Assembly: GCF_004348445.1 (NCBI RefSeq)
Contig: NZ_SMKV01000019.1
Span: 1 to 64,000, forward strand
DNA length: 64,000 nt
Reading direction: 5' to 3'
Source: Saccharopolyspora aridisoli
GTDB taxonomy: Bacteria; Actinomycetota; Actinomycetes; Mycobacteriales; Pseudonocardiaceae
The number at the start of each line of letters is the position of its first letter. Position 1 is the first letter of the stretch. The position numbers and the translations under genes are program-made. This document shows, piece after piece, positions 14,454 through 34,742 of the stretch. The notes under the pieces were generated by a model. It worked only from the letters and a program-made list of their open reading frames with translations, ran no database searches and was not told where the DNA came from.

Positions 14454-34742
<20,289 letters not shown>

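Follow-up and report, generated by a model that had tools for sequence, protein, structure and literature searches.

A ketoreductase lacking its catalytic tyrosine in a polyene synthase of Saccharopolyspora aridisoli: a probable inactivation within a domain that seems to be under relaxed constraint in four congeneric species

Flavatericin is presented in PMC8944477 as a predicted structure, partially purified material of which had no detectable antifungal activity, and section 4.3 of that work places clusters of the flavatericin type in Saccharopolyspora flava, S. 'dendrathemae', and Lentzea relatives. In the same account, S. flava carries a Hyg5 chorismatase and an AmphDI-like glycosyltransferase, while the candicidin synthase has a tetramodular protein (modules 17-20) followed by module 21 with the thioesterase, and candicidins vary through the processing of ketones by modules 17, 18, and 21 (PMC8944477). 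Ketoreductase (KR) domains without a working tyrosine are likewise described: the KR of module 13 in a nystatin-like polyketide synthase (PKS) of Pseudonocardia is predicted to be inactive and has no catalytic Tyr (PMC5183585), and a Tyr to Phe change is among the engineered KR inactivations tabulated in PMC7242659, both in DEBS KR6, where Ser and Lys were changed as well, and in FR-008 KR21. C1-like KRs, a class incompetent in reduction that does not epimerize, are described in PMC11228615, and inactive KRs of this sort are already known from polyene PKSs; it is against this background that the KR described here is to be viewed.

The DNA analysed, hereafter the window, comprises the first 64,000 bases of a 122,026-base contig (C11) in the 6.0-Mb draft genome of S. 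aridisoli (G000), which consists of 83 contigs. Most of the window is occupied by three PKS genes on the minus strand: as resolved by open reading frames and motif reading, protein A (34754..61822; 9022 aa) has six modules and protein B (14454..34742; 6762 aa) is tetramodular, and they are accompanied by protein C (9286..14421; 1711 aa), which holds the last module and the thioesterase and sets the carbon-1 end of the numbering. P450 genes lie beside the PKS, and window positions 16-1779, 3884-5776, and 5808-6671 hold two FAD-dependent hydroxylase-like genes and a methyltransferase, which are candidates for tailoring.

Related clusters were sought in 22 genomes of the genus, the window's own included, with one genome per species. 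Three congeners (G002, G005, and G010) have collinear clusters, and across the four species the order of the eleven KRs in these proteins is the same. G005 is S. flava, as its six places agree with the named locus L080 and its B2 locus is identical; since its cluster is collinear with the one described here, the PKS of the window is taken to be of the flavatericin type, and the S. flava cluster, on contig C12 of that genome, is presumably the flavatericin cluster itself. In S. aridisoli the synthase is split, with its upstream half on contig C14, where the KRs have the same order and spacing as on the single G002 contig that also bears the counterpart of the C11 part; the two contigs apparently part at window position 1 and C14 position 107110. 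KS motifs number 23 (6 + 4 + 1 on C11 and 6 + 4 + 2 on C14), and the end of C14 holds a KR-bearing fragment whose counterpart gene in G002 has one KS, which brings the count to 24 modules, the number also given for the Lentzea relatives (PMC8944477). The G002 counterpart of this end gene starts with an AMP-binding domain of the CoA-ligase type, at the point where the contig ends in S. aridisoli. The spacing of the modules on C14 suggests that the product would be a heptaene.

Counting back from the thioesterase module, and assuming that synthesis follows the gene order A, B, C, module C1 determines carbon 3, B4 carbon 5, B3 carbon 7, and B2 carbon 9, so that on this assumption C9 is indeed the carbon affected by B2, as a sequence-only reading of the window had proposed. 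Module B2 (25500..29726, minus strand) consists, by its motifs, of a KS from 29726, an AT with HAFH at 27627-27698, a KR, and an ACP at 25500-25562; a motif search found no DH motif between the AT and the KR. HAFH is here presumed to mark a malonyl-specific AT. The layout of four modules followed by one with a thioesterase is shared with candicidin/FR-008 and makes B2 the equivalent of module 18 by position. Work on FR-008 by Zhou et al. 2008 is cited in PMC7242659. Module 18 of FR-008 contains a DH (PMC7242659), whereas none was found in B2, the two being matched by position.

For the comparisons the catalytic subdomain of the B2 KR was cut as residues 2754-2992 (25767..26483, minus strand); the profile of Pfam PF08659 matches residues 155-328 of a surrounding 421-aa piece with an E-value of 9.9e-54. 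At 26049..26051 the plus strand reads GTC and the minus strand GAC, which encodes residue 2898 of the 6762-aa frame at 14454-34742 (protein context: [26 protein letters not shown]). In a phmmer alignment to solved KRs, Asp2898 sits under the Tyr of GLGGYAPGN in EryKR1 (2fr0), and its codon is one base away from TAC; the replacement of the catalytic Tyr by Asp, the central claim of the sequence-only reading, is thereby confirmed. On the same strand, the NADPH-binding motif GGTGALG (26445..26465, by motif comparison), the B-type fingerprint VLDD (26214..26225), and, by KR alignment, the catalytic residues Lys2861 (26160..26162), Ser2885 (26088..26090), and Asn2902 (26037..26039) are all intact. 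Lys, Ser, and Asn are therefore in place and the full Lys-Ser-Tyr-Asn set fails at the Tyr alone, so that the domain, as judged from these residues, is a KR by descent that lacks a complete active site.

How little else has changed can be gauged against 204 external KRs, chosen as those with complete Lys, Ser, Tyr, and Asn: the B2 KR deviates at two of the 56 columns conserved at 90% or more (Y146D and L156I), and the description of the domain as otherwise complete accordingly holds at the level of motifs. In both G000 and G002, the only alterations of the B2 KR among conserved columns are at the Tyr and at one hydrophobic position. A yardstick of decay is provided by the KR of module A5 (39692..40342, minus strand), which is heavily eroded, with Ala for Lys, Gln for Tyr, and Asp for Asn. 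None of the four species retains these three catalytic residues in A5, and the domain deviates at 20-21 of the same 56 columns across them. The role of A5 would match that of the module 13 KR in the nystatin-like PKS; B2, in contrast to the eroded A5, has lost only its Tyr, and has done so at a position additional to that nystatin-like case. A single-sequence AlphaFold model of the 421-aa piece reached a mean pLDDT of 46.7 and was given no weight.

Comparison with homologous clusters, which the sequence-only reading had put forward as a check, places the substitution in context. The KRs corresponding to B2 in G002, G005, and G010 share 71-76% identity with it and lie in open frames of similar length. 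Where the Tyr would stand, G002 has Ser (AGC, two bases away from TAC and two from GAC), while G005 and G010 have Tyr (TAC); the B2-equivalent KR of S. flava thus retains the residue that is Asp in S. aridisoli, and two of the four species lack the catalytic Tyr, each with a different residue in its stead. The surrounding loop reads GDAGQAGS in G002, GSPSQSTY in G005, and GSPAQSTY in G010, the conserved Gly of GQ being replaced in both of the latter, and LDD has become LDA in G002 and LDG in G010; Tyr, Lys, Ser, Asn, and GGTGALG are all retained in G005 and G010. Beyond the genus, a search of 390 genomes of the family returned 26 further loci, every one with Tyr (26/26), a set that may include non-orthologs of B2 and beside which further places were listed without a locus. 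Six of these loci, from genus g26, have LDD and [12 protein letters not shown], and for four genomes of that genus (G271, G265, G259, and G274) the B2 position was confirmed by KR order and by the 6 + 4 + 1 arrangement of modules.

A wider survey indicates how seldom this Tyr is lost. It covered at least 80 GTDB loci closest to B2 (best-segment identity 46-68%), with no ortholog from the genus among the loci listed, and retained domain hits of more than 160 model positions (312 when the regions of the congeners are included). The Tyr column of the 234 KR domains from these loci contains Tyr in 221 and another residue in 13 (E in five, L and A in two each, and D, R, G, and Q in one each); as the loci were picked for their nearness to B2 and some overlap, such that a few KRs were perhaps counted twice, the counts describe a neighborhood and not KRs at large. 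Two of the 13, L078 (Q) and L082 (A), both from the loci listed, keep Lys, Ser, and Asn. Searched as a motif, the Asp form occurs in six of the 390 family genomes and the Tyr form in 260; a reversed-pattern control for the Asp form gave four hits, so that the bare pattern lies near chance and means little, and judged by context three of the six Asp hits lie in a KR (G000, G033, and G242). The latter two, L182 in G033 and L184 in G242, are PKS KRs of other genera in which Asp likewise takes the place of the Tyr. A Tyr to Asp change in a KR is a rare state, and no natural instance was found described in the portions of text returned by literature searches for Tyr-less or Tyr-to-Asp KRs. When a 5-kb query was run against a plasmid collection, none of the 76 records matched covered 80% of it; the 20 matches listed have 26-47% cover and about 74-76% identity and are nearly all annotated as type I PKS, and five of the 76 records have a best place of 99% or more.

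The rate of evolution of the domain was compared with that of the other KRs. In every one of the six congener pairs, the KR of B2 is the least identical of the eleven and the one with the highest dN, followed in dN by A5 for three pairs and by C1 for the other three. The dN/dS of the B2 KR is the highest in five of the six pairs. Averaged over the pairs, dN/dS is 0.43 (0.32-0.58) for B2, 0.31 (0.23-0.42) for A5, and 0.215 (0.19-0.24) for the pool of the nine remaining KRs. On codon resampling the order of B2 and pool was reversed in one of 1000 replicates for the four species, in none of 1000 for G000-G002 (0.46 vs. 0.22), and in 19 of 1000 for G005-G010, in which the Tyr is kept (0.36 vs. 0.20), figures that are indicative, since resampling assumes independence among codons and some branches are common to several pairs. 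The comparison with an outgroup genus used four genomes, omitted A5, and took the A1 and C1 KRs by expected position instead of by best hit; there, B2 stands at 0.14 against 0.16 for the pool, and it is the module C1 KR that stands out, at 0.36. As the C1 KR also exceeds B2 in the G005-G010 pair (0.40 vs. 0.36), a raised dN/dS alone is no proof of inactivity; at the same time, B2 values below 1 indicate that some constraint is left, as in A5.

Branch lengths were compared as well. When the tree was fixed by the other nine KRs, B2 exceeded the nine concatenated in length on each of the six branches within the clade, by a factor of 1.4 to 2.8 (B2/pool 0.164/0.076 on the branch to G000, then 0.165/0.081, 0.060/0.044, 0.101/0.035, 0.065/0.034, and 0.149/0.066); on the branch that separates the genera it did not (0.391 vs. 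0.470). This combination suggests that the B2 KR first came under relaxed constraint in, or close to, the last ancestor shared by the four species. No comparable excess in dN/dS is seen in the KS or AT of module B2. Replacement of the KR by recombination was considered and rejected, in that its dS over the six pairs (0.22-0.50) falls inside the range of the other KRs (0.11-0.62).

Together these data alter the interpretation that the single codon first invites. An error in sequencing or assembly, or a mutation confined to this strain, would agree with a codon one base from TAC, with a draft in 83 contigs, and with a sample of one genome per species, but it is made very unlikely by the relaxed constraint throughout the clade, by the absence of the Tyr from G002 also, and by three PKS frames that contain no internal stop. 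The earlier suggestion that the loss is either recent or a sequencing error is not borne out: Ser in G002, altered loops in G005 and G010, and a relaxation that is clade-wide and absent in the outgroup all speak against it. The undamaged look of the domain, from which that suggestion had been drawn, stands as far as motifs are concerned and fails for constraint, which has apparently been relaxed from roughly the time of the ancestor common to all four. Very probably, then, the change of the Tyr is real and not new, and selection on the domain slackened before the four species split.

The reading preferred here, to which we assign a probability of roughly 0.7, is that the B2 KR of S. aridisoli is genuinely inactive and structurally retained in the manner of a C1-like KR, with loss of the Tyr and preservation of the NADPH motif, and that the beta-keto group is passed on unreduced. 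Without the Tyr as proton donor, module B2 would hand on its beta-keto group as such, and the macrolactones of G000 and G002 would each bear a C9 ketone. That the domain is retained probably reflects the scaffolding that a beta-module requires of its KR part, and the more eroded A5 KR likewise persists in the same synthase; slow decay of a domain whose fold stays needed would fit the survival of its motif residues. In G005 and G010 the B2 KR may be weakened or dispensable and not dead: since the catalytic residues are kept there, the enzyme may still work, in which case its loss is later than the relaxation. If the ancestral codon was TAC, two histories remain: either the Tyr was lost once, before G000 and G002 split, and the codon then changed further, or it was lost twice. 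By the codons, each requires a minimum of three base changes, and under either the enzyme seems to have been less needed before the Tyr went.

A narrower alternative confines the loss to the lineage of G000 and G002, with a KR that works in G005 and G010 and evolves quickly there for some other reason, such as leaky, partial reduction. It can draw upon the intact Tyr, Lys, Ser, Asn, and GGTGALG of those two species, upon the C1 KR, which surpasses B2 in dN/dS in their pair, and upon the variable ketone processing recorded for candicidin modules 17, 18, and 21 (PMC8944477); set against these are a B2 dN of 0.077 that is the highest for that pair, with 19 of 1000 resamples reaching the pool, the altered Gly of GQ in both species, and the broken LDD of G010, and on balance we regard this alternative as possible but unlikely. 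Less probable again is that reduction continues, either through Asp or by a reductase acting in trans or after release, and yields a hydroxyl at C9. Such an outcome has a precedent in tetromadurin KR12, which lacks the Tyr although the final product is hydroxylated at the carbon concerned, C7 (PMC7489565), and the NADPH site, Lys, and Ser of B2 are intact; relaxed constraint, however, is unexpected for a working enzyme, and no short-chain reductase was found among the eight flanking genes typed.

KRs of the C2 type are epimerases. That B2 is such a domain, kept for the epimerization of an alpha-substituent, can hardly be credited: reductase-inactive KR types are recognized, C2 included, but most C2 KRs are described as keeping the Tyr and as likely mutated at the NADPH site (PMC11228615), and B2 presents the reverse. 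The role was rejected on this pattern, and with the B2 AT read as malonyl there would also be no alpha-methyl group to epimerize.

With the B2 KR taken as inactive, the structure best predicted for S. aridisoli is one with a ketone at C9. It would be the second ketone, beside that predicted at C15 from the dead A5 KR, which fits the conserved hemiketal of polyenes if the numbering adopted here corresponds to that of the figure legend concerned (PMC8944477). Other domains of the synthase have changed as well. DH domains are recognized by the motifs HxxxGxxxxP and YGPxF. In the B1 DH (window 31647-32063) an acidic residue replaces the Gly of HxxxGxxxxP (Glu in G010, Asp in the other three species), and the Tyr of YGPxF is lost in all four, from which it follows that C11 of the product probably keeps its hydroxyl. 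A DH remnant in B4 (window about 16347-17012) is missing its HxxxGxxxxP region in G000 and G002, and the domain is absent from G005 and G010, whose B proteins are shorter by 141 and 157 aa; apparently this is a dead domain that was cut out in one lineage. In five ATs (A5, B1, B2, B3, and C1), dS between G000/G002 and G005/G010 is 0.62-1.12, as against 0.32-0.49 in the KS domains of the same PKSs, a difference that makes AT exchange or gene conversion likely.

It may be suggested, tentatively and with less than even confidence, that the four clusters capture, stage by stage, how a PKS came to lose a reducing step, with relaxation at about the common ancestor, the Tyr later changed to Asp in one species and to Ser in another, and the B4 DH dead in one pair of species and missing from the other. 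The value of the locus lies in this graded example of PKS domain decay over four species, and in a comparative test that corrects the tempting interpretation of a recent mutation or an error. A usable check is suggested by it, namely that a PKS KR with one lost catalytic residue be assessed through the constraint that its orthologs show over the full domain, together with a warning that KRs with an intact Tyr, as in S. flava, may already be weakened. For the product, the predicted polyene structure shifts by one oxidation level at C9, and a testable prediction across species is made; if true, a second in-ring ketone would stand at C9, placed for ring closure with the C5 or C13 hydroxyl, and chemotypes would differ between the species in a predictable order.
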